Virus record (IMG/VR): IMGVR_UViG_3300044616_001833
Span: 1-25,806 of that record
DNA: 25,806 bases
Direction: 5' to 3' (one strand)
Origin: a virus
Position 1 is the first letter of the stretch, and each line of letters opens with the position of its first letter. Position numbers and translations under genes: made by a program. The notes under the pieces are model-generated. The model saw only the letters and a list, made by a program, of their open reading frames with translations. It did no database searches and was not told where the DNA came from. Shown piece by piece: positions 1,429 through 24,393 of this stretch.

Positions 1429-3346
1429 CGTTGTGCTCCTGGATGCCGCCCATCAGGGCATTGATGGGCATTGAGTTGAAGTCCATCGCTTCCACGGCAG
1501 GCTCCCCACCAGCCAAGGAGTCCCGGATGCTCCCGTCTTCCAGCATCTGGACGAAGTCGAGGGCCCCGGACTGCCCGGTCGCCACCTGGCGGTCAAGCCG
1601 GCCCCGGACCACGAACATGCTCATTGACACCGTGTCGATGAAGTCGTCGTGCTGGAGGCCGCCGCTGTCCGCATCCGGGTTGAACTGCTCGATCTGGTCG
1701 AACAGCATCCGCCACGGCAAAACCCCCCTCCGCCAGACCGGGAACTTGATGAGCCCGTGCTCGAAGCGGTAGTGCAGGGCATTGATCTTTGCCGTCTTGT
1801 CCAGCGTGCCCACCCGCAAGGGGATGATCTTCGGGGGCGTCTCGCCCGTCACTTCCGCCGCACGCTGGCGGACCATCGACTCCATGGCCGAGTACAGGCC
1901 GAAGGACTGCCGGACCACCTCCGGATGGATCGACGGGCACCCCCACCTGCCGGCCATTGCGAACGACTTCTCGATGAGGAGCTGCTCCCGGCACTGCGCT
2001 CCCCAGGTGTCCAGAACGAACAGGCAGGCATCCACCGGGTCATAACCCATCAGGGTGCAGACCTTGTAGTCGCTGTCGCTCGTGTTCGTGTAGCTGGTGT
2101 CCACCGCAATGAACATCCGCACCCGCTCCCGCAGGAACTTCTGGACGGGCATCTTCTCCTCGATGCCGTTCTTCCCGTTCCAGCAGATCGTCGCCTCGCT
2201 CCGCTTGGGATCGGCGTCGAACTCCGGATCCGGGTTCTCCAGCCACCACCCGTGCTTGGCCTGGGTGACCTCGCCGAAGTGCAGGTCCTCGGCCTCGCCG
2301 GGCTGGGCCAGGTACTCCGCCATGTAGTTGTGGCTGCCGATCAGCTCGCGGATCTCCTCGAGGCTGACCAGACCCTTGAGCTTCGGGTCCCCCTCCTTGG
2401 CCTTGCGGTCCAGCGGCCACATGCCGGGCCAGCAGCTCTTGCGCACACCCTCCTCCTCGTACTCCGCCTTGAGGATCAGGCGCGCCCACTGGTCGAAACG
2501 GGAGTCCTTCGCCACGGGGCCGGTGGGGCTGGGCATCGTCTCCATCGCGTGCCACGCGTAGTGCCGCCTGCTCACGAACGTGGCAAGCCAGCGGACGCTC
2601 GTGTCCCGGCGAGTCACCATAGGCATCACCACCTTGAACAGCAGGCGCTCCATGTACGCCCTCAGGATCGACATGCTGGTCGAGGCCTTGGGGTCGTACT
2701 CCGGGTCATCCAGCGCATACACGCGGGGACGACCGCCACGCTGACGGCTCTCGGCGCTGATGGCACGGAACCAGCTGCCGTTGTTCAGGTACATCATCTC
2801 CACGCCGAACGAACGCTCTCCGCGCTTCGGGGTCAGGCGACCGTCTGGGAACTCTGGACCCCAGTCGTCCAGAAGGCGTTGGTTCGACAGGAACTGCGTC
2901 TTCAGGATCTGGGACGTCTGCTCTGCGTTGTCGATGCTGCTCGTGGCGTAGATGAAGGAGTAAGCCGGGCGGCTAACCATCTGAAGGAGTGCCGACTTGC
3001 GGAAGCAATTGCTCTTGGCAAAGCCACGCGGGGCAATCGCGACGCTGCGGGGTGCGAGCGCCCACAGGCGGTAGATGGCGAAGTGCCCCAGCGGCGACTC
3101 GATCGGGTCATCGTCGTAGAAGTAGGGATTGAACTCCTCTTCCCAATCCGGGTAGAGGTAGTAGCGGTCGAAGAAGTTGATGGCCGCAGCGAGCGCTTGG
3201 GCCCGGTCGTTCGGGTCGCCGCCGAGTTGCCACTGCTTGCACGCGTTCACGCGCGCAAGTCTCTGTCCCTCGGGCGTCAGCTCGAGGTAGTCGGCGGGAA
3301 GTGGGTAGAAGTCATTCCCCCCACGCTCGATCCGTACGACGCTCAA
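1403..3346 (-). CDS. terL: Terminase large subunit (DNA packaging ATPase/nuclease)
   Basis: The 647-residue product has the two-domain plan of phage large terminases. The N-terminal ATPase has a Walker A-like loop, IAPRGFAKS, at about residues 104-112 and a Walker B strand, RVYALDD, at about 208-214. The C-terminal RNase H-fold nuclease has a first acidic motif, FIAVDTS (D416), and a late acidic motif, HDDFID (D567/D568, D571). It cuts concatemeric DNA and drives it into the prohead through the portal. The start is TTG at 3346, overlapping the upstream stop as TTGA. No ATG gives a better fit, and GGTGGGG just upstream may serve as a weak ribosome site. That GGTGGGG belongs to one copy of the GCTGGTGGGG word (3349-3358); another copy lies inside the gene near its 3' end (1504-1513). 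Confidence 0.93.
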   Translation of the reverse strand: MSVVRIERGGNDFYPLPADYLELTPEGQRLARVNACKQWQLGGDPNDRAQALAAAINFFDRYYLYPDWEEEFNPYFYDDDPIESPLGHFAIYRLWALAPRSVAIAPRGFAKSNCFRKSALLQMVSRPAYSFIYATSSIDNAEQTSQILKTQFLSNQRLLDDWGPEFPDGRLTPKRGERSFGVEMMYLNNGSWFRAISAESRQRGGRPRVYALDDPEYDPKASTSMSILRAYMERLLFKVVMPMVTRRDTSVRWLATFVSRRHYAWHAMETMPSPTGPVAKDSRFDQWARLILKAEYEEEGVRKSCWPGMWPLDRKAKEGDPKLKGLVSLEEIRELIGSHNYMAEYLAQPGEAEDLHFGEVTQAKHGWWLENPDPEFDADPKRSEATICWNGKNGIEEKMPVQKFLRERVRMFIAVDTSYTNTSDSDYKVCTLMGYDPVDACLFVLDTWGAQCREQLLIEKSFAMAGRWGCPSIHPEVVRQSFGLYSAMESMVRQRAAEVTGETPPKIIPLRVGTLDKTAKINALHYRFEHGLIKFPVWRRGVLPWRMLFDQIEQFNPDADSGGLQHDDFIDTVSMSMFVVRGRLDRQVATGQSGALDFVQMLEDGSIRDSLAGGEPAVEAMDFNSMPINALMGGIQEHNDGKRGTRV

Positions 3347-3693
3347 CGCCCCACCAGCCCCACGGCAGCGATGCGCAGGAACGCAACGGCCATGAGGTTG
3401 TGGTCCTGCACGAAGCGTTCGAGGTCGTCACCGATCTTCAGCCACTTCTCTCCCTCGTGGACCTGGCTCCGGAAGAGCTCGCCGAGCTGGTCGGGTTCCA
3501 TCTTCCGGAACACGCTCGGCTCGAGGACCCCGAGCTGCGGAAGGATCGACGCGCCAAGCCGGTAGCAGTCAAGAGGCGGAAGGCTCTTGATCCTTGCGAA
3601 CGCCGCCTTCTGGAGCGGGGTGGGCTGCTTGGGAGGAGTCGCGGGCAGGGAGGAACTGGGCTGCGAAGGGGAGACTGTCTGGGACTTTGACAT
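3343..3693 (-). CDS. Hypothetical protein before terL (116 aa)
   Basis: I chose the ATG at 3693 (MSKSQTVSPSQ) because the longer frame upstream of it is arginine-rich and looks like noise. The first 35 residues are Ser/Pro/Gln-rich and probably disordered. The rest is helical (AFARIKSLPPLDCYRLG, then KWLKIGDDLERFVQDHN) and ends GLVGR. The stop overlaps the TTG start of the large terminase. The 5' part overlaps the upstream gene (3569-4012) by 125 nt, which is unusually long for this genome. The family is not recognised. Its place directly before terL makes it a second candidate for a small terminase or packaging factor. Confidence 0.6.
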   Translation of the reverse strand: MSKSQTVSPSQPSSSLPATPPKQPTPLQKAAFARIKSLPPLDCYRLGASILPQLGVLEPSVFRKMEPDQLGELFRSQVHEGEKWLKIGDDLERFVQDHNLMAVAFLRIAAVGLVGR

Positions 3694-4012
3694 GGTTCGT
3701 GCTTTCTCGCAGGGACTGTACGAGTTTCGCCGACGCGCTGATCTTAACGACCCGGTCGCCTTCCTGGTGCGTGATCTCCGCGTTCTGGCTCTGAATGATC
3801 CCGTTGATCTCGGCCGTCTCCCGCACCACGCCACGGAGCTGCTTCATCGCCGCCATCGCGACCTTGGGGTCGGAGTCGCGGCTGAACTCGACCAGGCGCT
3901 CGACTTCCTCCCGGACTTCCCAGTTGCTCGACCGCAGCGCAAGGGCCACTCCGTCCAAGCCGAAGTAGGAGCGGATCGTTTCCTCGCCGGAGGATGCGGG
4001 AAGCTGCCTCAA
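3569..4012 (-). CDS. Helical protein, possible small terminase (147 aa)
   Basis: The frame starts at TTG 4012 with a TTGA overlap on the upstream stop and an AGGGG run a few bases before it. The only ATG codons lie too far inside. Residues 10-75 look like paired helices (NWEVREEVERLVEFSRD, then DPKVAMAAMKQLRGVVRETAEI), similar to a short HEAT-like pair. A beta-like stretch follows (AEITHQEGDRVVKIS), then a Pro/Ala/Gln-rich tail. Small terminases are often short helical proteins encoded just before terL, which is why I suggest this role. I see no clear helix-turn-helix. The last 125 nt overlap the next gene in another frame, so one of the two termini may be a chance extension. Confidence 0.6.
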   Translation of the reverse strand: MRQLPASSGEETIRSYFGLDGVALALRSSNWEVREEVERLVEFSRDSDPKVAMAAMKQLRGVVRETAEINGIIQSQNAEITHQEGDRVVKISASAKLVQSLRESTNHVKVPDSLPFAAQFLPARDSSQAAHPAPEGGVRKDQEPSAS

Positions 4013-5877
4013 CGCCGGCCCCTCACTCGGTTCAGGAACCGCTGCAGGACGGTGGTCCGGGTGATCGGCTTCTTGTTCCTCGCCTTGCCCATCGGCGGCG
4101 CTTCAGGCTGCTCGACCCTGCGGATCTGCGGCTTCGGCACCCCAGTAGCCTCCGGGTTCTGCGAGCCCCGAGTCTGGATCGGACCCTGCGGCGTGACTAT
4201 CCTAAGGCCCCTGGCCATGACCCTTGGCTCCCGGATCGGCTCTTCTGGCGGACGGGGCATCGCGACAAGCCTGACGTTCCCGCGTGCATCCTCGACCGGG
4301 ACGAGCATCATGCTCGGGTCGTTGCCCCCACCAGCAGCAGCCCTGAGTGCTTCTTGACGGTCTGAAATGCGACGGTCCAGGTCCAGGCGCATCCGTTCCT
4401 CGCTCCACCGTGGACGAAGAGCTCCGCCTGGAGCCATGCGGGAACGAGCCTCTCTTTCGATGTCTTCAACGGTCCCTCGGGTGAGAGGACCATGAATCAA
4501 CTGTCCGGGATCTCCCTTTGCAGCAGCAGCCTTCTTGCGCATCATGAATTCAATCAGCGCAGTCAGTGGCCTCCTCTTGCCCTGCTTGTCCCGGACGCGT
4601 GGCATGGGATCTTCGCCGCGTGCGCTGGCGGCAAGCCTGCGCTCCTCGCGCTTCCTGTCCTTGACGTTCTGCCGATAAAGCTTACGCTCCTCCGAACCCT
4701 TGGGGGGCAGGTCCATCTCCTTGGCTTCTTTCCTTGCCTTCCTTGACTGCTTCTCTTCAGCAGTGCGGACCCCTGCACTCTTGCCTGTCTTGGGGTTGAT
4801 GACGGTCCCCGCCTCGAAGCTCTTGCCCTGACCGAACATCTTGTTCATGAGCTTCTGGAGCATGAGGGCAGCCAACTTGTTCCCGCTCTTGGCCTGGTTG
4901 TTCAGGTACTCGAGGAAGGGGGGAACAGGCGCGTTCGGGTCGGACTTCGCGAGCGCGGAACGCTCGCGGTACATCTTGGCAAGAACGTCAGGCTTGTAGT
5001 ACCGAGGTACGTTCGGAGAATCCTTGAACGTGAAGTAGATGGGATTGCCGGAGGAAGTGACTGCTTCTGAACCGACGGCCCCCCCAGCACGGGAGATGGT
5101 TTGGCCGATCTTGCTGGGGACACGTTCGCCGGTCCTCTGGTCGATGATGCCCATGCCGGCTCGCTCCATCAGGCGACGGGCGGATGCGCGGCGTGCAGTT
5201 CCGCGCTGTTCTTCTGCGACCCTCTGCTGCTCCCGGCGTTGCATGGCGACCCATGAGTCGCCCGTTTCCAGCGCCTTCTTCTTCTCTTCGGCCTTGCCCT
5301 TGGCGCGGATCACTCGCAGGCGGTCAAGGGCCCGTGCACCCTTGGACGGGGGCATGGCACCGCTGCGTGCCTGGTGTCGCAGCACACGGACACCCATCTC
5401 CAGTCCGGAAGGGGACGCAAGGGAACGGGCAAGGTTTGCCTCGACCTCGGGAGGGAGGCCGGACTCGCGGACAGGACTTCCCTTCGCGGTGTTCTGGCTC
5501 GTGCGTGCAACCTTGAGCGCACGAGATTCCGCTTCCGTCTCCGGAGCCCTGCCGCCTGCAAATCGCTGTTCGTCAACGACCTTCCTGAGGATTGCCTGGG
5601 ACTCGGAAGCATCACGGCGGAGGAGCATGTCCTCCGCGTAGACCGCCAGCGACTTCAGGCCAGGAGCCGCTTCCGGACGGATCTTCTTGGACTTGACCAG
5701 CCGATCGACGGTTTCGTTGATGTTCTCTCGGGAGAACAAGCGCTCGGGGTCGATGTCCCCACGGACCATCCGGCGGACGATGCCTTCGCTTTTGAGGAGC
5801 TCGGGCCACAGCAGGTTCAGCTCACTCGGCGTGACGTTGAAACGGATCCGGCTGCTCTGTTGGGAAGTTTCGGCCAT
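4009..5877 (-). CDS. Large basic helical protein (622 aa), unknown
   Basis: This long protein is rich in Arg, Lys, Glu and Ala, with extended charged helices (for example KAEEKKKALETGD, MQRREQQRVAEEQRG and EERKLYRQNVKDRKREE). A moderately structured N-terminus (VTPSELNLLWPELLKSEGI) and a small ordered-looking patch near residue 290 (NPIYFTFKDSPNVPRYY) stand out. The C-terminus is Pro/Arg-rich and ends RVRGRR. No catalytic motif, signal peptide or membrane segment is visible. It lies in the packaging operon, so an internal virion, scaffold or DNA-binding structural protein is possible, but I do not recognise a family. The start at 5877 overlaps the upstream gene by 56 nt. Confidence 0.75.
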   Translation of the reverse strand: MAETSQQSSRIRFNVTPSELNLLWPELLKSEGIVRRMVRGDIDPERLFSRENINETVDRLVKSKKIRPEAAPGLKSLAVYAEDMLLRRDASESQAILRKVVDEQRFAGGRAPETEAESRALKVARTSQNTAKGSPVRESGLPPEVEANLARSLASPSGLEMGVRVLRHQARSGAMPPSKGARALDRLRVIRAKGKAEEKKKALETGDSWVAMQRREQQRVAEEQRGTARRASARRLMERAGMGIIDQRTGERVPSKIGQTISRAGGAVGSEAVTSSGNPIYFTFKDSPNVPRYYKPDVLAKMYRERSALAKSDPNAPVPPFLEYLNNQAKSGNKLAALMLQKLMNKMFGQGKSFEAGTVINPKTGKSAGVRTAEEKQSRKARKEAKEMDLPPKGSEERKLYRQNVKDRKREERRLAASARGEDPMPRVRDKQGKRRPLTALIEFMMRKKAAAAKGDPGQLIHGPLTRGTVEDIEREARSRMAPGGALRPRWSEERMRLDLDRRISDRQEALRAAAGGGNDPSMMLVPVEDARGNVRLVAMPRPPEEPIREPRVMARGLRIVTPQGPIQTRGSQNPEATGVPKPQIRRVEQPEAPPMGKARNKKPITRTTVLQRFLNRVRGRR

Positions 5878-6337
5878 TGGATTGCTCGGCTGCCGGGATC
5901 ATTGTAAGCACGAAACGCGTGAGTTCAGCAGCGGCTGACCGGATTGCGGCACGCTCCGCAGGCGGGGAATGCACCCCCACCAGCCTCCGGGCGTCGAGGA
6001 TGGAGCGTACGACCAGCTTCCAGTTGCGCTGGATCTCGACCGGATCCACCCGGTTCCGGAAGTGGCGTCGGTTTTTCTTGTCCTTGTGGTAGGAGTTGGG
6101 CCCGTGGAAGTCGGGGTTGCCGGGCATGGACAGGTGTTTCATGCACACCTGGAAGACGGCCGGGTCCACGAACGCCGTGCTGCCGAGCACGATGACCGGA
6201 CAGCAGATCGACCGGCACAGGGCGCGGAACGCGCGGGGCTTGTCGATGCCGAACGCCCGGAGTTCGCCGATGTAGTACTCCTCGCTCATCAGGCGAACGC
6301 CACGGCCGAACGAGATGACTTGCTGCTCAGTCGGCAA
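5822..6337 (-). CDS. Hypothetical protein (171 aa)
   Basis: The product has a compact N-terminal part with several cysteines (RALCRSICCPVIVLGST), then FQVCMKHLSMPGNPDFHGP and a basic segment (HKDKKNRRHFRNRVDPVEI). Helices follow (WKLVVRSILDARRLVGVHS, ERAAIRSAAAELTRFVLTM). The longest start is TTG 6337, overlapping the upstream stop by 11 nt. An ATG at 6289 (MSEEYYIGELRAFG) is a plausible alternative; neither has a strong ribosome site. Its 3' end overlaps the next gene by 56 nt. The family is not recognised. Its place early in the packaging transcript suggests a structural or packaging-related role only by association. Confidence 0.65.
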   Translation of the reverse strand: MPTEQQVISFGRGVRLMSEEYYIGELRAFGIDKPRAFRALCRSICCPVIVLGSTAFVDPAVFQVCMKHLSMPGNPDFHGPNSYHKDKKNRRHFRNRVDPVEIQRNWKLVVRSILDARRLVGVHSPPAERAAIRSAAAELTRFVLTMIPAAEQSNGRNFPTEQPDPFQRHAE

Positions 6338-6854: not shown

Positions 6855-6883
6855 AATGGTCGATTCAGAGAGAGGAGCACGAC
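6855..6883. promoter_or_regulatory. 29-bp gap between divergent transcription units
   Basis: The leftward packaging operon and the rightward helicase gene start only 29 bp apart. The gap holds the helicase ribosome site (GAGAGAGGAG, 6 nt before the ATG) and little else. It is too short for two back-to-back promoters with -35 and -10 boxes, so any promoters must lie inside the coding ends, or the units are read from further away. Confidence 0.5.
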
Positions 6884-8302
6884 ATGCGAGATTGGTGGCT
6901 TCAGAATCCGCTTGACAGCGTAGAGCCTGTCAAGGTTGCGCGCGTTGCGTTGCAGAGGCAATTTACCACAGCCGATGGGGTGCGAGGACTGTGGCGTTGG
7001 CGGAATGACTGGTGGGTGCTCGAGGGCAGCGTGTGGCGGGTGGTCGATGAGGAGCGCGTGCGGGACCTCATGTGGCTGTTCCTGGAGGACAGCGTGTGGC
7101 AGAGGGCCACGCAGAACGGGCTGGTGCTGGAGCGGGTGAGGCCGGACAAGCCGAAGGTGGACGGGGTGGTGAGGGCGCTGGAGGCGTTGGTGAGGATCGA
7201 CGCGGAGAGCGTCCCGCTGTGGCTGGACCGCAGGGCGGGTGACTTCCCGGCGGGGGAGACGGTCGCATTCATGGACCGGCTGGTGAACGTGAAGACGCTG
7301 GAGACGGTGGAGAGGACGCCGAGGTGGTTTGATACGGCGATCCTGCCCGTGAATTGGGATCCGGACGCAAAGTGCCCGAGGTGGGAGCAGGCAGTCCGGG
7401 AGTGGGGCGAGGGGGACCCGATCTGGGCAGAGCTGCTGGCGCGATGGATGGGCTATTGCCTGATGGGGACGCGGAAGTATGCGCGGTGGATGTTGATGTA
7501 CGGCAAGATCCGGGGTGGAAAGGGCACGATCAGCGGGGTGTTGAGGAAGCTGGTAGGCCGGGACGCGTTCATGGGCGCGAGCCTGGAGGACTTGGCGGGA
7601 GGCTTTGGGATGGACGGGCTGGAGCGGACGAAGGTGCTGAGCATCAACGAGGTGAGCGAGCTGGAGGGGAAGAACGGGGAGAGGGTGTGCCGGGTGGTGA
7701 AGAACATCGTGGGCAGGGACCCGATGACGGTGGACGCGAAGTACATGCGGCAGCAGCGGAACGTGGTGGTGAATGCGGCGGTGATGATGCAGAGCAACGA
7801 GATCCCGGTGCTGCCGAACAAGGGCAGGGGGCTGAGCGGGAAGATGCTGGTTCTGCCGTTTGAAGTGAGCTTCGAGGGGCGGGAGGACCTGGATCTGGAG
7901 GGGGATCTGGAGGGTGAGTTGCAGGGGATTGCGGCGTGGGCGATCAGGGGTGCGCATCGGCTGGAGGGGAGTGCGGCTGGGGAGAGGTGGCCCGTGCCGA
8001 AGGCGAGCGATCGGGCGGTGAAGATGTATCACTTGCAGAACAACCCGTTCGATGCGTTCCTCGAGGCGCGGTTCGTGAGGATGCCGGGGGGGTTCGTGAG
8101 CAACACGCTGCTGAGGGCGCAGTGGGACGCGTGGGTGAAGGCGAACCGGATCCGGATGCACGTGAGCATGAACCTGCTGCCGATGAAGGTGGTGCAGGGG
8201 AGCAGCTGGGACGTGAGGCAGACCCGGTTGAGCGAGGCTCACGGGCATGAGCGGGGAATCGAGGGATTGGGTCTGAGGAAGGAGTATGATGACGAGCACT
8301 AG
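6884..8302 (+). CDS. D5/SF3-type replicative helicase (primase-helicase C-part)
   Basis: The 472-residue protein matches the C-terminal half of phage D5-like primase-helicases. A D5_N-like region (residues about 120-190) holds FMDRLVNVKTLE and the typical LPVNWDPDAKCPRWE. The ATPase has a P-loop GKIRGGKGT (207-215), a Walker B-like strand VLSINEV (250-256, with N before E where many have D) and a sensor Asn in MMQSNE (305). These are hexameric SF3 helicases that unwind DNA at phage forks. No zinc finger or primase catalytic motif is visible at the N-terminus, so this is probably helicase only. A strong AGGAG site precedes the ATG. The coding strand is G-rich (many AGG, GTG and GCG codons), unlike the C-ending codons of the downstream replication genes. 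Confidence 0.87.
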   Translation: MRDWWLQNPLDSVEPVKVARVALQRQFTTADGVRGLWRWRNDWWVLEGSVWRVVDEERVRDLMWLFLEDSVWQRATQNGLVLERVRPDKPKVDGVVRALEALVRIDAESVPLWLDRRAGDFPAGETVAFMDRLVNVKTLETVERTPRWFDTAILPVNWDPDAKCPRWEQAVREWGEGDPIWAELLARWMGYCLMGTRKYARWMLMYGKIRGGKGTISGVLRKLVGRDAFMGASLEDLAGGFGMDGLERTKVLSINEVSELEGKNGERVCRVVKNIVGRDPMTVDAKYMRQQRNVVVNAAVMMQSNEIPVLPNKGRGLSGKMLVLPFEVSFEGREDLDLEGDLEGELQGIAAWAIRGAHRLEGSAAGERWPVPKASDRAVKMYHLQNNPFDAFLEARFVRMPGGFVSNTLLRAQWDAWVKANRIRMHVSMNLLPMKVVQGSSWDVRQTRLSEAHGHERGIEGLGLRKEYDDEH

Positions 8303-8310
8303 GAGGGCTC

Positions 8311-8562: not shown

Positions 8563-8575
8563 TACTCCCCTCTCG

Positions 8576-8931: not shown

Positions 8932-8987
8932 CTGTCCAGTCGGCCAGAGCAGCACTCGAATCCCACCATGCTCGAAAGGAGCACGCT

Positions 8988-9347: not shown

Positions 9348-9360
9348 CGTCCGCACAGCA

Positions 9361-10123: not shown

Positions 10124-10133
10124 CCCCACCAGC
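10124..10133 (-). repeat. GCTGGTGGGG word, intergenic copy
   Basis: This exact copy on the minus strand lies between the zinc-ribbon stop and a GAAAGG run at 10134. The interval 10116-10335 holds this copy, a GTG-started frame I do not trust (10150), a pyrimidine-rich tract and a strong hairpin. Confidence 0.9.
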
Positions 10134-10960: not shown

Positions 10961-10970
10961 CCCCACCAGC
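10961..10970 (-). repeat. GCTGGTGGGG word, intergenic copy
   Basis: This exact minus-strand copy lies in the 88-nt gap between the SSB-like gene and the next ribosome site (GAAAGGA, about 11021). Confidence 0.9.
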
Positions 10971-11032
10971 CTCTGTCCACCCGGACATGCTGGTGCGGGG
11001 AGCCGGGATCACCACATGCAGAAAGGAACCGC

Positions 11033-13908: not shown

Positions 13909-13918
13909 GCTGGTGGGG
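13909..13918 (+). repeat. GCTGGTGGGG word, intergenic copy
   Basis: This exact plus-strand copy lies 29 bp before the UDG start codon and directly upstream of its GAGGAA ribosome site. Confidence 0.9.
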
Positions 13919-13947
13919 TACCATTCCCGCCCCATCCGAGGAACGAC

Positions 13948-14664
13948 ATGCAACTCACGCTGCTCCCCGCCAAGCCGTCATGCACGGCATGCGATCTCCA
14001 TTCCTCCGCCAAGAACGTAGGCATCCCGTCCCGCCATCTCCCCACCAGCCTTCCCCCTGACCCCGCCAACCCGGTCGTCATCGTCATCGGCATGAACCCC
14101 GGCACCCAAGAGGACCGTGCCGGCGAGTGCTGGATCGGCCCGTCGGGCCAGCTCCTGTCCGGCCCGTACCTCACGGGCTCCGGCATCAACTCCCTCGCCA
14201 CCGTGTACCTCTGCAACGTAGCCCGTTGCGTCTCGCCCGGAGGCAAGCCCAAGCCTGCCCACTACCGCACCTGCTTCAGCCACACGCTCGCCGACATCCA
14301 GGCCATCCTCGAGCACCACATCCCGGCCACCGCCCGTGCCATACTGTGCGCCGGCGCAGACCCAGTCACGCACCTGTCCCGCACCTGGTCCAAGCGTGCA
14401 CTCTCCCAGCAGGATGCCTTCCGTACCCAGGGCATCGCCATCCCGACCCTGTCGCGCACGCACTTCTTCGCCACGTACCACCCGGCTGCAGTCCTGCGCG
14501 AGCCCGGCCTCATCCACCCGGTCGCAGATCACATGGCCCTGCTCCGCAACTTCCTGACCGGAGAACTCGCACGCCCGTCCGCTCCCCTCATCCGCGAACC
14601 CTTCTACCCAGTGACCGAGGCCAACCTCAACAACGCCGCATTCCGGCAAGGCACGCTCCGATGA
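13948..14664 (+). CDS. Uracil-DNA glycosylase, Fe-S (family 4-like)
   Basis: The 238-residue enzyme would excise uracil from DNA in base-excision repair. Motif A is GMNPGTQEDRAG (48-59) followed by CWIGPSGQLL; motif B is YHPAAVLRE (177-185). Four cysteines, C12 and C15 (CTAC), C94 and C109, have the CxxC...C...C layout of the 4Fe-4S family 4 enzymes. The GMNPG start of motif A is closer to the mismatch-specific family (GINPG) than to the usual GEAPG, so substrate range may differ. The ATG at 13948 has a GAGGAA site. The frame is open back to 13702, but that part crosses the structured RNA and has no ribosome site. One GCTGGTGGGG copy (14040-14049) encodes PTS. Confidence 0.85.
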   Translation: MQLTLLPAKPSCTACDLHSSAKNVGIPSRHLPTSLPPDPANPVVIVIGMNPGTQEDRAGECWIGPSGQLLSGPYLTGSGINSLATVYLCNVARCVSPGGKPKPAHYRTCFSHTLADIQAILEHHIPATARAILCAGADPVTHLSRTWSKRALSQQDAFRTQGIAIPTLSRTHFFATYHPAAVLREPGLIHPVADHMALLRNFLTGELARPSAPLIREPFYPVTEANLNNAAFRQGTLR

Positions 14665-15124: not shown

Positions 15125-15318
15125 CCGACCACGAGAAGGACATCGAGAACCTGCGCCTGCAGATCGACATCCTCACCGCCGAGCGCGACGAGGCGAGGCG
15201 GGACGCGGAACGGTGGCAGGCAGACGCCCTGCGCCTGTTGACGGAACGCAACGCAGCCAAGGAACAGAACGTCAAGCTCCTATCCAAGATCCAGGAGTAC
15301 GAGGCACGTGAGCAATAG
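15121..15318 (+). CDS. Coiled-coil protein (65 aa)
   Basis: Nearly the whole product is one amphipathic, charged coiled coil (KDIENLRLQIDILTAERDEA, LLTERNAAKEQNVKLLSKIQ). It starts with an ATGA overlap and its end overlaps the polymerase start by 11 nt. It may be a polymerase partner or oligomerisation factor, but only position supports this. Confidence 0.7.
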   Translation: MTDHEKDIENLRLQIDILTAERDEARRDAERWQADALRLLTERNAAKEQNVKLLSKIQEYEAREQ

Positions 15319-17392
15319 TCCCCGAGTCATCTCCCTCGACATCGAAACCTACGGAGCCGCTGCCACCAACGGGAAGGGAACCCTGTTGCCTGCGCAGACC
15401 GTGTTCCATCCTGCACGGGCCATCGCCACGGACGGCGTTGCCCGCCAGGACCTGGTGCTCACGTGCGCCATCACCGTCGCAGCGTCCGAGCCACGCCGTC
15501 CCGCCAAGGGAACGCTCGACCTCGACGGCATCGCCAGCCTCGTACCCGGCTCCACCTTCACGCTCAACCTGACCGACCCCACCAGCCACGCGTGCCTGTC
15601 CGCATGGCTGCGTCACTCCGACGTGATCGTCGGCATGAACCTGCCGTTCGACATCCTCTGGCTGCGTGCGTTCAGCAACGAGTTCGCGATGCTCCTGTCC
15701 GGCAGGCACACGCTCATCGACCTGTCCGTCGTCAACTTCCTGCACTCCGAGCTACGTCCCGAGCGCAGCCTCAAGTCACTCGGCCCCGTCCTCGGCACGC
15801 ACTCGTACCGTGACGACGCCACTCTCAAGGACGGCCGCCGCTTCCCTTCCCCCACCAGCCCGGACCTCCACGCCTACAACGCGCAGGACACGCACAACAC
15901 CATGCTCGCCGTCGCCCACCTGGCACGGCGCATCCAGCAGGATTACCCCGGCACGGACAAGCTCAACCCAAAGTGCGTCAGCCACTTCAGCAGCACGCTG
16001 TGGTCCACCATCCGCATGAGCGAAGCCGGCATCCCGTTCCGGTTCCGCACCCTGCACAACCTCGAGGATCGCCTGCTCCTCGAAGCAGACCAAGCATCCA
16101 ACTGCGCCGCCGCTGGTGGGGTACTCATCGAAGGCGAAGGCAGCGTCCAGTCGCAGCGCGAGTTCCTCGACCGCTGCATCGCCGACATCCAGGTCGCGCA
16201 CCCCGACTTCCTCACCCACCCACTGCTCACCTACACCGAGAAGAACAAGCAGCTCTCGTGGTCCAGCGAGAACCGCCGCCTCATCTCCAGCCACCTGCCC
16301 GACACGCACCCGGCCCGTGCCATCTTCGAGTGCGCCGACAAGCATGCCACCGCACAGAAGCTCGTCTCCTCATACACCTACCCGCTCCTCCGGCACCGTC
16401 GCACCAAGCCCACGGACAAGTCCTCCGTCCTCATCCCTTGCGCCGGCAACCCGATCATCGGCATCGCATACCCCACGTGGTACACCGTCCCGTCCGTTCC
16501 CAAGGACTCCGGCTCCGAAGGTGGCACGATCCAGGCACGCATCACCTGCAAGAACCCAGCAGCCCAGACATTCCCCGCCGTCATCAAGGACTGCGAGGAG
16601 TCACGCTTCCCCGGCGGCAGCATCGTCTCGTTCGACCTGAGCCAGATCGAGCTCCGCGTCGCAGCCGTCCTGTCCGGCGAGCCAACCCTGCTCGCCGCGT
16701 TCAACGACGGCCTCGACCTGCACACCGAGCGCACGCTCGCCATCTTCGGCCCCGACTCCAAGGAACGCCCGGACTTCAAGGCCCTGCGCCAGATCGGCAA
16801 GACCGTGAACTTCGCCGACCTGTTCGGCGCATCCGCCGCCCGACTCCAGCGTTCCGTGCTCGACATGTCCGGCACGCTTTACCCCATGTCCTTCTTCGAC
16901 CAGATCGTCGCCTCACGCCACGCCCAGCGGCCCCGCCTGGTGGAGTGGCAGCACTCCCTGTGCAAGACCGCCGAGTCGCAGGGCCACATCGAACTGCCGT
17001 ACACCGGCCACTCCCGTACGTTCACCAACTTCCGCCTGGACGAACGGGCATGGCGCACCCGCCGTGAACTCCGCCAGCTCCTCGCCCGTGGCGGCAAGTC
17101 GATGATCTCCGAAGTCTGCAACTTCCCCGTGCAGGCGACCGCCGGCAACGCCATGCTCGCCATCCAGAACCACATCCACCGCAACCTCGGACCCCTCACA
17201 TCCCCCACCAGCCACCTCCAGCCGCGCCTGTTCCTCCAGGTCTACGACGCCCTGTACTTCGACTGCCCGCTGGGCACCGAGGACCATGCCCGTGACCTCA
17301 TGGCGGAAGCAGTCGAGCACGTGTCCGAGTGCGGCTATTGGTACGAACTCTGTTCCCGTTCCGGTCATCACGCACCCCTCATCTACGAGTAA
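15308..17392 (+). CDS. DNA polymerase, family A, with 3'-5' exonuclease
   Basis: The 694-residue replicative polymerase starts at GTG 15308 inside the previous gene. The exonuclease has SLDIET (D11, E13), MNLPFD (N111, D115) and YNAQD (Y190, D194). Polymerase motif A is FDLSQIELR (D443-R450). Motif B is RQIGKTVNFADLFG (R494, K498, F502, F506), with Phe at the position equivalent to E. coli Pol I 762 and Phe instead of Tyr at 766. The late NFPVQATAGNAM (605-616) is conserved. Motif C is unusual: QVYDALYFD (644-652) has Tyr-Asp-Ala where VHDE is normal, so the His and second acid are replaced while D647 remains. There is no 5'-nuclease domain, as usual for phage enzymes. It carries four copies of GCTGGTGGGG (15577, 15850, 16112, 17203). 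Confidence 0.95.
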   Translation: MSNSPRVISLDIETYGAAATNGKGTLLPAQTVFHPARAIATDGVARQDLVLTCAITVAASEPRRPAKGTLDLDGIASLVPGSTFTLNLTDPTSHACLSAWLRHSDVIVGMNLPFDILWLRAFSNEFAMLLSGRHTLIDLSVVNFLHSELRPERSLKSLGPVLGTHSYRDDATLKDGRRFPSPTSPDLHAYNAQDTHNTMLAVAHLARRIQQDYPGTDKLNPKCVSHFSSTLWSTIRMSEAGIPFRFRTLHNLEDRLLLEADQASNCAAAGGVLIEGEGSVQSQREFLDRCIADIQVAHPDFLTHPLLTYTEKNKQLSWSSENRRLISSHLPDTHPARAIFECADKHATAQKLVSSYTYPLLRHRRTKPTDKSSVLIPCAGNPIIGIAYPTWYTVPSVPKDSGSEGGTIQARITCKNPAAQTFPAVIKDCEESRFPGGSIVSFDLSQIELRVAAVLSGEPTLLAAFNDGLDLHTERTLAIFGPDSKERPDFKALRQIGKTVNFADLFGASAARLQRSVLDMSGTLYPMSFFDQIVASRHAQRPRLVEWQHSLCKTAESQGHIELPYTGHSRTFTNFRLDERAWRTRRELRQLLARGGKSMISEVCNFPVQATAGNAMLAIQNHIHRNLGPLTSPTSHLQPRLFLQVYDALYFDCPLGTEDHARDLMAEAVEHVSECGYWYELCSRSGHHAPLIYE

Positions 17393-17395
17393 GCC

Positions 17396-18406: not shown

Positions 18407-18843
18407 TGCACCCATACCACCACGCACTGTCCTCCGCCAAGAAGTTCGGCGGGGAATGGCAGGATTACCTGTTCATCCACAACTGGTTCGACGAGACGAA
18501 GGCACTGATGGGAGACGCACGACACCGTGCCCTCCGGCACCACACCGCCGGCATCTTCTGGTGCGAGCAGGAGTTCGGAACCAACATCAAGGTTGGCGAC
18601 AAGCTGGTTCCGGTCCGGCTGGTCGCGGAGCAGCACGTCATGGAGGACATGGGTTTCCTGCCCACGCCCGAGTGGTGGCTGTCCAACATGAAGCTCACCA
18701 TCGGCATGAACCGAGTCCCCACCAAGCCGCCGATCAGCGGAGACGAATGGGCGGACACCAGGAAGAATCTCCTGAAGGACATCTACGGACTGCACAAGGA
18801 AATCCCTAGCATCCGGGAGTGTCCCGAACCGCCACAGTCCTGA
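18406..18843 (+). CDS. DUF6915-like protein (145 aa)
   Basis: The start overlaps the previous stop as TGATG. The sequence has the pattern I recognise for DUF6915: HPYHHALSSAKKFGGEW, DYLFIHNWFDETKAL, ARHRALRHHTAGIFWCEQEFG. It is strikingly rich in His and Trp, and the conserved histidines could bind metal. The biochemical role is not known. It ends 25 nt inside the ERCC4-type nuclease gene. Confidence 0.65.
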   Translation: MHPYHHALSSAKKFGGEWQDYLFIHNWFDETKALMGDARHRALRHHTAGIFWCEQEFGTNIKVGDKLVPVRLVAEQHVMEDMGFLPTPEWWLSNMKLTIGMNRVPTKPPISGDEWADTRKNLLKDIYGLHKEIPSIRECPEPPQS

Positions 18844-19493
18844 TCGACAGCAGGGAGAAGAAGCCGCTTGCGTTCCCGGCCCACCTCGTGGTGCTGGACC
18901 GCAGCCGCCCCTCCACCGCCGGCAAGTCCCTCACATTGACGGTCCGCACTCAGTCTCAGACCCTCAAGACCGGGGACTACCGGCTGGTGGGGGGCACAAG
19001 CGCAATCGAGCGCAAGGGTTCCTTCGAGGAAATCGCGGGGAACTGCCTGACCGTGGACGGCAGGCGACGCTTCGCCGAGTGCTGCCGTCGCCTCCGTGAC
19101 GAATGCAGGACCGCCTGCCTGCTGTTCGAGGGCTGGATCCGGGACTTCGAAGTGCGTCCTGGACTTCCGCATCCGGGGGTGGCAACCGATGCTTTGCTCG
19201 ATATCATCGGGGAGCACGGTTTGCCGCTCATGCTTCTTCCCCTGAGCACAGTCGGCCAGCGTAGGGCCGCAGGAGAATGGGCACTGAGGTGGCTGCTCGC
19301 GCAGGAACGACATGGCACAGGTCCAACTCACCACGGACGTCAAGAGCTTCTCGATCGCATCGATTGCCGCAGTCACGACGACGACGCCAAGCCGGGTGGT
19401 CACGACGACCAAGCCGGTGGCAGGATCGGGAAGTGTGCTGGTGGGGTCCAGCCTGAACTACCTGAAGTTCAAGACGCTGTCGACCTCGACTAG
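18819..19493 (+). CDS. ERCC4/XPF-type nuclease (224 aa)
   Basis: The start is GTG 18819, needed to keep the first core strand VLIDSREKKPL (residues 7-17). The active-site signature follows: LKTGDYRLV (49-57) and AIERKGSFEEI (62-72), the GD...ERK motif of ERCC4 structure-specific nucleases. Conserved-looking helices come next (RRRFAECCRRLRDECRTACL). Such enzymes cut branched or flap DNA in repair and recombination. The recognisable part ends near WLLAQERHG (about 165). The last 60 residues are low-complexity (HDDDAKPGGHDDQAGG) and overlap the tail gene by 182 nt, so they look like run-on translation at a module junction. A GCTGGTGGGG copy (18983) lies in the catalytic region. Confidence 0.8.
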   Translation: MSRTATVLIDSREKKPLAFPAHLVVLDRSRPSTAGKSLTLTVRTQSQTLKTGDYRLVGGTSAIERKGSFEEIAGNCLTVDGRRRFAECCRRLRDECRTACLLFEGWIRDFEVRPGLPHPGVATDALLDIIGEHGLPLMLLPLSTVGQRRAAGEWALRWLLAQERHGTGPTHHGRQELLDRIDCRSHDDDAKPGGHDDQAGGRIGKCAGGVQPELPEVQDAVDLD

Positions 19494-19809
19494 CGCGTTG
19501 ACCATGACGTTCATCGGCTGGTCCTTCTACCCAGACCAGATGGCGTGGGTTCCCCAGACGCTCTGCGTTGCCACGACGGTCCTGAACACGAACGCGCAGG
19601 CGGCTTTCCCGGGGCTGGCCGGCACGAACTACTACGAGGTTTCGCAGTACACCAAGACGGTCGGTGACGCGAAGATCTTCAACTCCACGAACTCGACGAC
19701 GAACGGTGCATTCATCCTGATCGATACGGTTGGATGCCAGTTCATCGAGGTCCACTGCTCCGCGGCGTCCGGAACCCCCACCGTCCAGGTTCTTCACGGG
19801 GGACTGTGA
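19312..19809 (+). CDS. Virion-type Ser/Thr-rich protein upstream of tail fibre (165 aa)
   Basis: The ATG at 19312 has an AGGAA site. The product is rich in Thr, Ser and Ala with beta-like segments (SIASIAAVTTTTPSRVVTTT, SALTMTFIGWSFYPDQMAW, GAFILIDTVGCQFIEVHCSA), as in phage structural proteins. There is no signal peptide. It starts inside the ERCC4 nuclease frame and its stop overlaps the next start as TGATG, so it is coupled to the tail gene. It is probably a tail or head-decoration subunit; the exact role is unknown. Confidence 0.65.
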   Translation: MAQVQLTTDVKSFSIASIAAVTTTTPSRVVTTTKPVAGSGSVLVGSSLNYLKFKTLSTSTSALTMTFIGWSFYPDQMAWVPQTLCVATTVLNTNAQAAFPGLAGTNYYEVSQYTKTVGDAKIFNSTNSTTNGAFILIDTVGCQFIEVHCSAASGTPTVQVLHGGL

Positions 19810-22370
19810 TGCATCGCAACAGGACCTGGAACCTCACTGACACCGAGGCTGTCCTGCGCACGCAGCGCAACCGAGTCCTGCCGATCGCAGGTCCGAGCGG
19901 GTGCTTGTCCGACAACAAGCCCGACGCGGTCACGCGCGTGGCGGCCAGCGCACTCAGCGCTTCGTCCATCGACGTTAGCTGGGACCCGGATACCGCAGGC
20001 GGCCCAAACGAGGCCACGTTCTGGGAGGTCGAGCGGTCGCCCAACGGCAGCACCGGATGGACGCAGGTCGCGGTGGTCGTGATCAACGCATACGTCGATA
20101 CCGGGCTGGCGGCGAGCACGCAGTATTGGTATCGGGTGATCGCCGGGAACTGTTACGACAAGACCCCGCCAAGCGCCACGGCCAACGCGACCACGCAGGC
20201 CGGAACCGTGCCCGCCGACCCGACCGGGGTCAGCGCGTCCCCGAGCACGGACGGCACGGCGGTCGCGGTCACGATCACCTGGACGGACGCCTCGGCCAAC
20301 GAGGACGGCTTCTACGTCTACCGCAATACGACCAACACCACGGTGGGCGCAACCCTCGTGAACGGGGTCGGCGCGGGCGTCCAGACCTACACCGACGACG
20401 GGGCCAACAGCGGCGGCAACGCGCCCGCCGTGAACACGACCTACTACTACTGGGTCAGCGCCCACAACGGGATCGGCGAGAGCACGAAGGTCGCGGCAAG
20501 CCAGAACGCGACGGGCGGGGTCACGACCCTCAACGTCCCGGCCGCGCCGACCTCGCTCACCGCGACCGCCACGAGCACCACGCAGATCGACCTCGCGTGG
20601 ACCGACAACGCCACGAACGAGACCGGGTACATCGTCCAGCGGCGCAGTCCCGCCGGGAGCGGCGGCTACAGCCAGATCGCCACCCTGTCGGCTGGCGCAA
20701 ACTCGTACAGCAACACGGGCCTGACCGAGAGCGTCCAGTACGAGTACCGCGTCTACGCGACCAATGCGGCGGGCGCCAGCGCCAACAGCAACGCGGCAAG
20801 CAAGTTCACGATCCCCGCGACCCCCACGGGCCTGACGGCGACGGCGGTCAGCAGCTCGCAGATCGACCTTTCGTGGACGGACGTGTCGACCGGGAACACG
20901 GGCCAGCGCATCGAACGGCGCAGCCCGAGCGGCAGCGGGTCGTACTCGACCCTGACGACCGTCAGCGCAACGGCCACGACGTACAGCGACACGGGGCTGA
21001 CGGCGTCGACCTCGTACGAGTACCGCATCGTGGCGACGAACGCGGACTACGACTCGTCGCCGTCGACGGCTGCGAACGCGACCACGCAGAGCGGGGCGCT
21101 GTCACCATCCTGGACCCTCGACTTCAGCAGCGGCACCCCTTCGGGCTACACGCTCACCCGCGCCAGCAGCGGCACCTACGTGGACTCCTCGGGCTACATC
21201 GCGTCGGCGGCCACGGACGTCGCCCGCCTCACCCACAACAGCAGCGGAACCCGGCTCGGGCTTCTGGTGGAGGAGAGCAGGACGAACGAATTCCAATATT
21301 CGGAAGACCCGGCGAATGCGTACTGGACGAAGTCAGGTAGTGGAATCAACAACAACAGCGGCGCTTTCTGGACGGCTCCAGACAATGCGTCAACCGCCGT
21401 GCTGCTGCGTCAGAACACCTCTTCTGCGGCGCATTACATGAGCCGGACGGTCGGTTCACAGACGGCGCGAATGAACAGCGTGTTCGTGAAGAAGCAGAAC
21501 CTTACGGGAGGAAGCGGAAGGGCTGGAAAGTACGCGACGCTCCTCTTGTCAAGAAGCGGCACGGAGTATTACCACGCGACATTCGATCTTGATGCCGGGA
21601 CGGTCACGCAGTCGGCGGTGGTCGGAACGGTGATTTCTTCGACCGACCGAGGCATCGAGGCGTTCAAGGACGACTGGTACCGGATCTGGGTGCGCGGCAC
21701 GGCCAGCACTTCCGGGAACTTGAACTTCGTCCTCGCGCTGGCAACCAACGATTCCAGCGGCACTCCTGCAATGACTGCCAATGGCGAGTCGTATTTGGGG
21801 GCGAATACGACGGACGGAATCTACATCTGGGGAATGGATGGCGCGAACGTCAACGTAGTGCCGACCTCCTACATCAAGACGCCGTCGAACGCATCCGTCC
21901 AGCGCGACCCCGACCGCGTGTACGTCCTCGACTCCACGATCACGTCGTGGGGCGACCCCGGTGCCTTGGTCATCCACTTCTACCCGCCGGGTCAGGCCGG
22001 GACGCTGCTGTCCACCGACGATGCGCCTGCGGAGCAACTCGGCCTTCAGGCCAGCAGCACGACCGCGGCGCGGGCGTTCTGGTCGAACGGTAATACCTCG
22101 ACGGGCACCATCGCCGCGGGGGTGAACAAGGCCGTCCACTACTGGAGCGGAACGTCATCGTCGTTCTGCATCAATGGCGGGTCCGTAGACACCCAGACAA
22201 ACAATGTCACGACCTTCGGAAACATCGACTTCGTTACCTTCGGGATGGAGGCCACCGACAGCAGCGGCACGCCGGGGACGTACACGCAGTACCCGAATCT
22301 CATCATCCGAAAAGTCGAGTTCTACGCCGGGACGCTCACATCGGGCAACCTCCAGACGATCACCACATGA
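19809..22370 (+). CDS. FN3-repeat tail fibre / receptor-binding protein (853 aa)
   Basis: I use the ATG at 19809 (TGATG overlap); the frame upstream is noncoding in character. Four fibronectin type III repeats lie at about residues 39-130, 135-237, 244-333 and 336-427. They are recognisable by PxxPTxLTATAxSxxQIDLxW and YEYRVYATN-like edges. The C-terminal 420 residues contain the phage adhesion pattern GLLVEESRTNEFQYSEDPAN (about 484-503), known from tail-fibre lectin-like domains. A further beta-rich, jelly-roll-like region ends LTSGNLQTITT. It is probably a virion surface protein that contacts the host. The third and fourth repeats are similar to each other, suggesting duplication. Codon choice changes after about 21280, toward more A/T, hinting at a swapped module. 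Confidence 0.8.
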   Translation: MHRNRTWNLTDTEAVLRTQRNRVLPIAGPSGCLSDNKPDAVTRVAASALSASSIDVSWDPDTAGGPNEATFWEVERSPNGSTGWTQVAVVVINAYVDTGLAASTQYWYRVIAGNCYDKTPPSATANATTQAGTVPADPTGVSASPSTDGTAVAVTITWTDASANEDGFYVYRNTTNTTVGATLVNGVGAGVQTYTDDGANSGGNAPAVNTTYYYWVSAHNGIGESTKVAASQNATGGVTTLNVPAAPTSLTATATSTTQIDLAWTDNATNETGYIVQRRSPAGSGGYSQIATLSAGANSYSNTGLTESVQYEYRVYATNAAGASANSNAASKFTIPATPTGLTATAVSSSQIDLSWTDVSTGNTGQRIERRSPSGSGSYSTLTTVSATATTYSDTGLTASTSYEYRIVATNADYDSSPSTAANATTQSGALSPSWTLDFSSGTPSGYTLTRASSGTYVDSSGYIASAATDVARLTHNSSGTRLGLLVEESRTNEFQYSEDPANAYWTKSGSGINNNSGAFWTAPDNASTAVLLRQNTSSAAHYMSRTVGSQTARMNSVFVKKQNLTGGSGRAGKYATLLLSRSGTEYYHATFDLDAGTVTQSAVVGTVISSTDRGIEAFKDDWYRIWVRGTASTSGNLNFVLALATNDSSGTPAMTANGESYLGANTTDGIYIWGMDGANVNVVPTSYIKTPSNASVQRDPDRVYVLDSTITSWGDPGALVIHFYPPGQAGTLLSTDDAPAEQLGLQASSTTAARAFWSNGNTSTGTIAAGVNKAVHYWSGTSSSFCINGGSVDTQTNNVTTFGNIDFVTFGMEATDSSGTPGTYTQYPNLIIRKVEFYAGTLTSGNLQTITT

Positions 22371-22660: not shown

Positions 22661-22661
22661 G

Positions 22662-22871
22662 ATGACAATGGAGCCAGGATCCAACATCGTCAAGCTGTCA
22701 GCAGGAGACTGGGCCAAGATCGCCGGCGTGGCGATCACGCTGTTTGGAAGCCTGCTCGGCGTCTACCTGCACCACGACCGCCAACTCACCCAGCTCATCA
22801 TCCAGCAGCAGTACACAAACGCCCGGCTGGACAAGATCGAGACGAAGCTTTATGAAACGCCTCACCGCTAG
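22662..22871 (+). CDS. Holin-like membrane protein (69 aa)
   Basis: One hydrophobic helix (IAGVAITLFGSLLGVYL, about residues 20-36) is followed by a charged, probably coiled-coil C-terminus (HHDRQLTQLIIQQQYTNARL). Short length, one N-terminal membrane span and its place before a spanin-like gene fit a single-span holin or holin partner that permeabilises the inner membrane at lysis. The ribosome site is weak; a second ATG at 22668 is possible. The end overlaps the next gene by 20 nt. Confidence 0.55.
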   Translation: MTMEPGSNIVKLSAGDWAKIAGVAITLFGSLLGVYLHHDRQLTQLIIQQQYTNARLDKIETKLYETPHR

Positions 22872-23331
22872 CCTCCTGCTGGTGGGGTGCAGCGCGACGG
22901 AGCGGGTATCGGACAACACGAACGAGATCCGGGCAGAAGCCCGCGCCCTGTCCGTGCACGGGGAATCCATCCAAGACAAGGAGGTAGTCACCCGTGCCGA
23001 CAGAATCTACGAACTGGCTGCCGATATCCATGCTCAGCTTCCTGGCCTTGAGGACCGTACCCCTGCGTGGATGGAGACGCTCGTTTGGGTGGCTGGTGCC
23101 GTGGTTGCCGTTGCAGTCGTCATTGTCCTGTGGCAGACCGGACTGGGCCAGGCCATCCGGATTGCCGTCGGCTGGATCCCGCGCAAGAAGGTTTCGGATG
23201 CGGACCTTGCCAGCCGGATGCTCGATGACAAATCACCTGAGGATGCCCGCGAGTATGTCGCTGCGCGGCGGGCATCTGACCCGGAGTTCGATGCTGCGTG
23301 GCGACGCATTCACAAAAAGGAAACAGCATGA
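22852..23331 (+). CDS. Candidate unimolecular spanin: lipoprotein with TM segment (159 aa)
   Basis: The N-terminus MKRLTASLLLVGC is a lipoprotein signal with lipobox LVGC (Cys13; Ser at +2 favours the outer membrane). Residues 14-72 form a polar, helical periplasmic part. A membrane helix follows at about 74-96 (METLVWVAGAVVAVAVVIVL), then a charged cytoplasmic-type tail of about 60 residues ending HKKETA. An outer-membrane lipid plus an inner-membrane helix is the plan of unimolecular spanins, which disrupt the outer membrane. The long C-terminal tail is unusual for that class. The GCTGGTGGGG copy at 22878 encodes part of the lipobox. Confidence 0.55.
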   Translation: MKRLTASLLLVGCSATERVSDNTNEIRAEARALSVHGESIQDKEVVTRADRIYELAADIHAQLPGLEDRTPAWMETLVWVAGAVVAVAVVIVLWQTGLGQAIRIAVGWIPRKKVSDADLASRMLDDKSPEDAREYVAARRASDPEFDAAWRRIHKKETA

Positions 23332-23444
23332 TCCTCGCTGACTTCTCCTCTTTCCTCGGTAGCCTTTGGTTTGCAGCCCTACTTGGTGCGGTCGGCTTCG
23401 TGGCCGGCTGGTACCTGTGCAAGAAGCATGGCTCCAAGATCTGA
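23328..23444 (+). CDS. 38-residue membrane peptide
   Basis: This short gene is coupled by ATGA to the spanin candidate and by TGATG to the phosphoesterase. The product is MILADFSSFLGSLWFAALL, continuing as a single hydrophobic span, and ends in a basic tail (CKKHGSKI). Size and place suggest a lysis helper or antiholin-like peptide, but this is inference. Confidence 0.55.
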   Translation: MILADFSSFLGSLWFAALLGAVGFVAGWYLCKKHGSKI

Positions 23445-24382
23445 TGTCAAAGACTCCCTTGGGAGAGCATCCTAAGGCCCCGTTTCAGGTGAGGGCAGCG
23501 ACAAGGAACATTCACCTTGTCGATCTCGATTGCACCTCGAAGACGGATGAGTGGTGGTTCCTGCTGTCCGGGGACCGCCACCACGACAACCCGCACGCAG
23601 ACCATGAACTTGAGCTCAAGCACCTTGATCAAGCGGTTGAGCGTCGCGCTGGCATCATCGATGTCGGCGATCTGTTCTGCGCCATGGAAGGCAAGTTCGA
23701 TCCTCGCCGCAACAAGGCGGGCATTCGCGAAGAGCATGCACTGGCTGCGGACTACCTCGATTCCCTAGTCCGCCACGCCTCCGACTTCTACGCGCCGTAC
23801 GCAAAGAACTTCGTCGTGATCGGCCGGGGCAATCACGAGTCCGCGATCCTGAAGAACTGCGAGACGGACCTGACCGAGCGGCTGTGCGAGCGCATGAGCC
23901 AGCAGACCGGGCACAAGGTGTATCCCGGAGGCTACGGCGGCTGGCTCCGTTTCAACATCAACCTTGACACCGAGCGGTTCACCCTGTCCCTCAAGTACTT
24001 CCACGGGGCTGGTGGGGCTGCGCTCATGTCCTTCGACACGCTCAAGGTCCGGCGTAACGCGGCGGTCATGCCGGACGCGGACGTGATCGTGCAGGGCCAC
24101 GTCCACAAGCAGTGGTTCATGCCGCTGTCCCGCGAGCGACTTGTCTGCGACAAGGCCGGCTGCCGCGTGGTCAGCGACATCCAGTACCACGTCCGCACCG
24201 GGACGTACAAGGACGAGTTCGGCGACGGCCACAGCGGCTGGCACATCGAGCAGGGCCGAGGACCCGAGGTGCAGGGCGCGGTGTGGATGCGGCTCTACCT
24301 CGCGAAGCAGACCGGCAAGACGATCAGCGGCGACCGCAAGACCTACTACCAGCTCACGCCTGAGTTCCACCTCGCGCACTGA
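23444..24382 (+). CDS. Calcineurin-like metallophosphoesterase (312 aa)
   Basis: The start overlaps the previous stop as TGATG. All main two-metal motifs are present: GDRHHD (D44, H46), VGDLF (D76), GRGNHES (N130, H131), FHG (H187) and GHVH (H219, H221). The order and spacing fit calcineurin-like phosphoesterases, which cleave phosphodiesters in DNA, RNA or nucleotides; the phage target is unknown. It lies outside the replication operon, after the lysis genes. A GCTGGTGGGG copy (24008) is in the codons just after the catalytic His187. Confidence 0.88.
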   Translation: MSKTPLGEHPKAPFQVRAATRNIHLVDLDCTSKTDEWWFLLSGDRHHDNPHADHELELKHLDQAVERRAGIIDVGDLFCAMEGKFDPRRNKAGIREEHALAADYLDSLVRHASDFYAPYAKNFVVIGRGNHESAILKNCETDLTERLCERMSQQTGHKVYPGGYGGWLRFNINLDTERFTLSLKYFHGAGGAALMSFDTLKVRRNAAVMPDADVIVQGHVHKQWFMPLSRERLVCDKAGCRVVSDIQYHVRTGTYKDEFGDGHSGWHIEQGRGPEVQGAVWMRLYLAKQTGKTISGDRKTYYQLTPEFHLAH

Positions 24383-24383
24383 A

Positions 24384-24393
24384 CCCCACCAGC
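24384..24393 (-). repeat. GCTGGTGGGG word filling the intergenic spacer
   Basis: The spacer between the phosphoesterase stop and the HExxH gene start is 12 nt, and 10 of these are an exact minus-strand copy. No Shine-Dalgarno sequence remains in front of that gene. Confidence 0.9.

Follow-up and report, generated by a model that had tools for sequence, protein, structure and literature searches.

What does a bacteriophage gain by scattering the same ten letters through its genome, within genes and between them, facing either way? The question is raised by IMG/VR record IMGVR_UViG_3300044616_001833, filed as a virus, whose 25,806 bases (GC 63.9%) are the whole stretch of DNA analysed here and are called the window. 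Within it the word GCTGGTGGGG, which is short, asymmetric and G-rich, stands exactly 17 times over the two strands. The answer proposed below is that these copies are over-represented in earnest and maintained by selection on the DNA itself, and that they may serve, with a probability that we put near 45% from the comparative analysis, as dispersed Chi-like sites read by a host helicase-nuclease of the AddAB or RecBCD type.

A ten-base word conserved as DNA

A preliminary description of the window had counted 17 copies where it expected roughly 0.2 at a GC content of about 64%, and had suspected selection on the DNA. The recount agrees, the composition is as assumed, and 100 dinucleotide shuffles gave an expectation of 0.18 copies with a maximum of 2. 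Markov models of order 2, 3 and 4 expect 0.13, 0.22 and 0.49 copies, and the word ranks first among all 10-mers of the window by over-representation, which is thereby confirmed. The Chi octamer GCTGGTGG occurs 19 times, and 17 of these occurrences carry the GG extension that completes GCTGGTGGGG. Neighbouring words with one mismatch are far rarer (15 seen against 6 expected, scattered across many words), so the word is a strict one. When codons were exchanged for synonyms in 300 shuffles, the curated genes held a mean of 0.78 copies and never more than 4, against 12 observed. A literature search for the 10-mer returned no relevant publication.

Relatives tell the same story site by site. Near-complete close relatives carry 26-35 copies of GCTGGTGGGG per genome, and in pairwise alignments of relatives with the window at 80-90% identity 50 of 67 copies were intact, where control 10-mers of any or of matched GC survived in 15-20% of cases; at 70-80% identity the figures were 69 of 126 and 13-15%. 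Above 90% identity 27 of 35 copies were intact, no excess over the controls, as expected where substitutions are few. As the alignment pairs join kin genomes and are not independent, no p-value is attached to these counts. Conservation begins and stops abruptly at the limits of the ten bases (86-94% identity inside them, about 78% overall), which together with the recount of extended octamers upholds the earlier view that the conserved unit is 10 nucleotides long. Single changes are tolerated at positions 1, 2, 3 and 10 of the word and never at positions 4-9. The copies are held, site by site, under strong purifying selection, and the codon shuffles, the several reading frames, the use of both strands and the exact ten-base block show that this selection acts on DNA and not on protein. 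Two checks had been proposed at the outset, shuffled controls that keep codon and dinucleotide use and conservation in related genomes; the first failed to reproduce the copies and the second was positive.

Across 22 genomes, 80% of word sites lie in genes and 20% between them, in DNA of which about 86% is coding; they occur sense and antisense, in several frames and two orientations. Their density is 0.5-0.7 sites per kb across the whole genome, with gaps that are random to slightly even, so that regular spacing is weak at best. The strand of the terminase gene holds an approximately 2:1 excess of sites (370:188), and strand polarity was considered as a signal of its own and rejected, since control words of the same composition reproduce the bias (late genes 70 vs 65%, early genes 63 vs 60%). 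Among early-gene sites 63% lie on the strand that runs against transcription, and orientation does not follow transcription. Positions are retained inside lineages, and near lineages share homologous site positions well beyond expectation (lineages A and B, 33 of 148, 1.3 expected; C and D, 26 of 362, 3.9 expected), whereas the deep lineages A and D share 4 of 356 against 3.8 expected, and the density persists. Such turnover of position at constant density is expected if the number of sites matters and not their position. The word is, in short, dispersed, position-independent and at home in coding and non-coding DNA alike.

A phage family with a word for each lineage

The window is a fragment of an uncultured family of double-stranded DNA phages with genomes of roughly 50 kb. 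Complete or near-complete relatives measure 49-54 kb and begin at different points, which suits genomes that are circular or circularly permuted. More than 160 metagenomic contigs represent the family here, all of the listed IMG/VR relatives being metagenomic, and its terminase, portal and Sak4 proteins found zero matches among 50,697 phage records. Genes in the relatives were called with a simple home-made caller. Those of the window that bear on the argument are as follows:

1403..3346, minus strand: terminase large subunit, which defines the family (PHROG 38, E=1e-32)
6884-8302, plus strand: DUF5906 SF3 helicase/primase
likely start 13945: uracil-DNA glycosylase (UDG)
15308..17392, plus strand: family A DNA polymerase (PolA; Pfam E=6.5e-24)
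18819..19493, plus strand: ERCC4-type nuclease in the early replication/recombination region (PHROG 3490; Pfam ERCC4 weak)
23417..24382, plus strand: SbcD-like DNA repair exonuclease (PHROG 7339, E=6e-10)
24993..25805, plus strand: 5' part of a PD-(D/E)XK (PDDEXK_1) exonuclease, truncated by the contig end (Pfam E=9e-13)

In relatives the early operon continues beyond the PD-(D/E)XK exonuclease with Sak4-like and single-stranded DNA (ssDNA)-binding genes. The conserved small protein beside Sak4 is predicted to be an OB-fold ssDNA-binding protein, on the strength of an AlphaFold model (predicted local distance difference test score, pLDDT, 86) for which Foldseek retrieved OB-fold ssDNA-binding proteins (PrgE; RPA/SSB weaker). 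The recombination gene set of the family accordingly comprises the PD-(D/E)XK exonuclease, a Sak4-like ATPase, the OB-fold protein and the ERCC4 and SbcD-like nucleases.

Among the complete or long members examined, each has a G-rich word of its own that is over-represented above all others, at about 20-40 copies per genome; the words of the other lineages were picked out in the very genomes that then served for counting them:

GCTGGTGGGG: window lineage, G013 and G014
CTGGTGGG(G): G399 and G400
CGTGGGGGGAC: G404-G406 and G410
AGTGGGGGGA: G407, G411, G412, G418 and the phage of a metagenome-assembled genome (MAG) described below
GTGGGGGGGA: G408
TGGGGGGAG: G415
GAGTGGGGG(T): G414 and G416
CTAGTGGGGAA: G403
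TAGCGGGGAA: G409 and G413
AGTGGGGGAG and GCTGCGGTGC: G402 (L268-L270), one lineage with two enriched words

The words of the other lineages are likewise asymmetric and G-rich, with TGGGG or GCGGGG. They track the phage tree as drawn from protein identities and keep a conserved core even though the GC content of complete members runs from about 0.41 to 0.63; exactly the same AGTGGGGGGA is common to members of GC 0.45-0.56. GGTGGG-type words are confined to a clade with Sak4 proteins at least 64% identical; part of this clade has a very different DNA polymerase (27-33%). The polymerase has been swapped (27-33% identity) in G399 (L265-L267) and in G014 and G013 (L145-L147), whose other proteins are mostly far closer to the window lineage. 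Contigs with PolA at 33% and the same word were considered as unrelated phages; this was rejected, as their recombination genes are 50-70% identical and place them in the family. The second word of G402, GCTGCGGTGC, overlaps in style with the Caulobacter Chi.

What might read the word

Position-independent, Chi-like sites of recombination or nuclease control fit the data best, ahead of operators, promoters and packaging signals, because the sites are dispersed, redundant and not promoters, are selected for number and not position, are asymmetric G-rich words, and accompany phage recombination genes. The reader would most likely be a host enzyme of the AddAB or RecBCD type, as no such protein is visible among those of the phage; reader, nuclease switch and host are all things that we infer. 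A helicase-nuclease attacking free double-stranded ends would meet the word, in its proper orientation, while unwinding phage DNA; recognition would attenuate the nuclease, and a 3' single strand would remain, which could enter recombination through the phage's Sak4-like recombinase and ssDNA-binding protein or through host RecA. Linear concatemers are a probable stage for a circularly permuted genome, and many sites placed anywhere would offer it both protection and recombination. Each phage lineage would then carry the version of the word that the enzyme of its own hosts reads.

Known systems offer both likeness and difference. Chi and Chi-like motifs include GCTGGTGG, GNTGGTGG, AGCGG and GAAGCGG (PMC8022716), and the Caulobacter Chi-like motif is GCGGTGGT (PMC5443536); the words of the family resemble these in style. 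Like the E. coli Chi of RecBCD, whose octamer it contains, GCTGGTGGGG is asymmetric, dispersed, and both genic and intergenic, whereas the words of other lineages in the family lack the octamer. The AddAB motifs of Bacillus subtilis (AGCGG), Staphylococcus aureus (GAAGCGG) and Caulobacter are also G-rich and asymmetric, and TAGCGGGGAA, the word of two lineages, contains the B. subtilis AGCGG; the family words are longer than these, were not found enriched in the candidate host, and have a nuclease attenuation that is putative. In lambdoid phages with a recombinase and without a RecBCD inhibitor, host Chi is over-represented with a median observed-to-expected ratio of 2.5 (Bobay et al. 2013, PMC3784561). 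A recombinase, here of the Sak4 family, and word enrichment are shared with those phages; in contrast, 10 bases are conserved here and not 8, sites number about 0.5-0.7 and not about 0.2 per kb, and enrichment is tens of times and not 2.5-3 times.

Several observations weigh against a host Chi. Ten bases exceed any Chi length in the cited literature, and an enrichment of about 35-fold over the fourth-order model in the window lies far beyond what has been published for phages. Base composition accounts for the strand bias, which so supplies no independent polarity, a state of affairs with a precedent in Vibrio, where a candidate Chi without strand polarisation has been reported (PMC8022716). 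A PolA relative was found in one of 84,980 species genomes, a Myxococcales MAG (PCCS01, G016), in which a near-complete phage of the family occupies three contigs, C7, C18 and C72 (L143, L144, L254, L255, L130). The rest of the 3.6 Mb, linked to the phage through binning, holds AGTGGGGGGA twice against 2.3-2.8 expected, which is the level of chance. None of 379 genomes of the MAG's phylum has a Chi-like density of GCTGGTGGGG, and three pair-pattern scans of 2.9 million viral contigs, with an estimated sensitivity of about 1/3 per genome, found none that was GCTGGTGGGG-rich and unrelated. If G016 is the host, a host Chi fails for that lineage; the binning may be wrong. The earlier suggestion of a host-type recombination hotspot or nuclease signal is partly supported: its Chi-like half is the best fit, and its host-type half is conjectural, with the phage's word at chance in the candidate host and no Chi-like density of GCTGGTGGGG in the phylum.

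Further searches around this candidate host were negative: AGTGGGGGGA was enriched in none of 37 relatives of the Myxococcales MAG, terminase and portal profiles matched no further phage in 378 genomes of its phylum, and a portal search of plasmids found no match. From the scans, contig L180 (8 copies on one strand, GC 0.68) was unconvincing, and other viral contigs with paired words proved to be coding repeats or hairpins.

In the most serious rival, tentative as it is, the reader is encoded by the phage or specific to it and co-evolves with the word along the phage tree; its task would be to initiate or restart replication, to organise the genome or to control recombination in the phage only. 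The words follow that tree with their core intact across the range of GC, one of them is identical in members of quite distinct composition, and the candidate host lacks an enriched word; among pair-pattern viral contigs only family members are GCTGGTGGGG-rich, and 12 of 12 stretches with a convergent pair belong to the family. Yet no obvious family-wide gene for a sequence-specific DNA-binding protein was found, the neighbour of Sak4 being of the predicted OB-fold type, the tree of the hosts could mirror that of the phages, and the scans are of limited sensitivity. In its strong form, in which the whole family depends on 20-40 copies of an 8-10 base word and the lineage carries or specifies the reader independently of any host Chi, the proposal is rather unlikely.

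That a phage repressor binds the words, as operators or stoperators that are dispersed, asymmetric, transcription-blocking and variable by lineage as in relatives of mycobacteriophage L5, is improbable. Copy number per genome of about 50 kb, asymmetry and variants that track the phage tree are all alike, and Cluster A stoperators are also numerous and asymmetric, the motifs of related phages being alike without being identical; they are, however, oriented predominantly along transcription (PMC6550527). Here orientation ignores transcription, the early-gene sites facing mostly against it to the extent that composition predicts, only 20% of sites are intergenic, positions are lost between deep lineages, and the scanned proteins included no recognisable repressor or integrase. 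On orientation, genic location (about 80% of sites) and position turnover we reject promoters and stoperators, and the regulator site of the preliminary description fits poorly; so does its packaging (pac) signal, given 26-35 dispersed copies.

A dispersed word outside recombination, such as a polarity signal for segregation or translocation like the FtsK-orienting polar sequences (KOPS), or an uptake signal like the DNA uptake and uptake signal sequences (DUS/USS), is very improbable. Those systems do use dispersed, short, G-rich words at similar density, but the polarity that KOPS require does not rise above composition here, and nothing known would lead a phage to keep an uptake word. As explanations, chance, codon usage, repeats in proteins and mutation bias can be dismissed: GC is high in this genome, and GCTGGTGGGG arises from tandem coding repeats in some unrelated viral contigs, but shuffles and Markov models all expect 0.2-0.8 copies against 17 (12 genic), conservation in relatives is far above background with sharp ten-base edges, and one-mismatch neighbours are not comparably enriched.

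If the word is a host Chi, each lineage's version predicts the Chi of an environmental host, which would provide a new means of tying uncultured phages to hosts and lengthen the short list of Chi sequences; if it is specific to the phage, the sites form a dispersed system that has not been described. In both cases the family provides a natural series of nine or more words, related yet different, in which joint change of word and reader can be studied.

Individual copies and neighbouring features

The 17 copies of GCTGGTGGGG are listed with the number of intact sites among the relatives aligned at each, where given:

1504..1513, minus strand: in the terminase gene, intact 14/20
3349..3358, minus strand: immediately upstream of where the terminase gene starts, intact 12/17
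4326..4335, minus strand: in gene 4009-5877
5975..5984, minus strand: in gene 5822-6337, intact 2/14
10124..10133, minus strand: scored intergenic, a single aligned relative
10961..10970, minus strand: intergenic, one arm of an inverted pair with a 14-base spacer whose partner arm has decayed in the window
13909..13918, plus strand: some 27 bases upstream of 13945, where the UDG gene likely starts, intact 9/10
14040..14049, minus strand: in the UDG gene, antisense, forming a convergent pair with the copy at 13909, intact 9/13
15577..15586, minus strand: in the PolA gene, antisense, intact 12/16
15850..15859, minus strand: in the PolA gene, antisense, intact 5/17
16112..16121, plus strand: in the PolA gene, sense, intact 12/17
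17203..17212, minus strand: in the PolA gene, antisense, intact 15/17
18983..18992, plus strand: in the ERCC4-type nuclease gene, intact 11/17
19437..19446, plus strand: close to the end of the ERCC4-type gene, intact 1/7
22878..22887, plus strand: close to the start of gene 22852-23331, intact 15/15
24008..24017, plus strand: in the SbcD-like exonuclease gene, intact 3/16
24384..24393, minus strand: 2 bases past the SbcD-like gene, intact 13/14

Many close relatives retain, at one intergenic spot (window 10961-11000), the perfect inverted pair TCCCCCACCAGC-N14-GCTGGTGGGGG; it is present in L361, L363, L366, L379, L383, L392, L395 and L399, and decayed in the window and in G001. This pair might serve as an origin, as a terminator hairpin or as a site that works both ways. 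The convergent pair at the UDG start (window 13909-14049), its words some 120-131 bases apart, recurs in L366, L399, L404, L408 and L412; the scan of 2.9 million viral contigs yielded 12 stretches with such a pair, every one in the family, and some relatives have a second. A tail protein with fibronectin type III domains (19734-22370) sits in about 3.4 kb free of GCTGGTGGGG. In the relative G001, three proteins (L131:4-696, L133:9401-10405 and L133:12960-13520) bear an N-terminal Mtd_N domain, that of the major tropism determinant.

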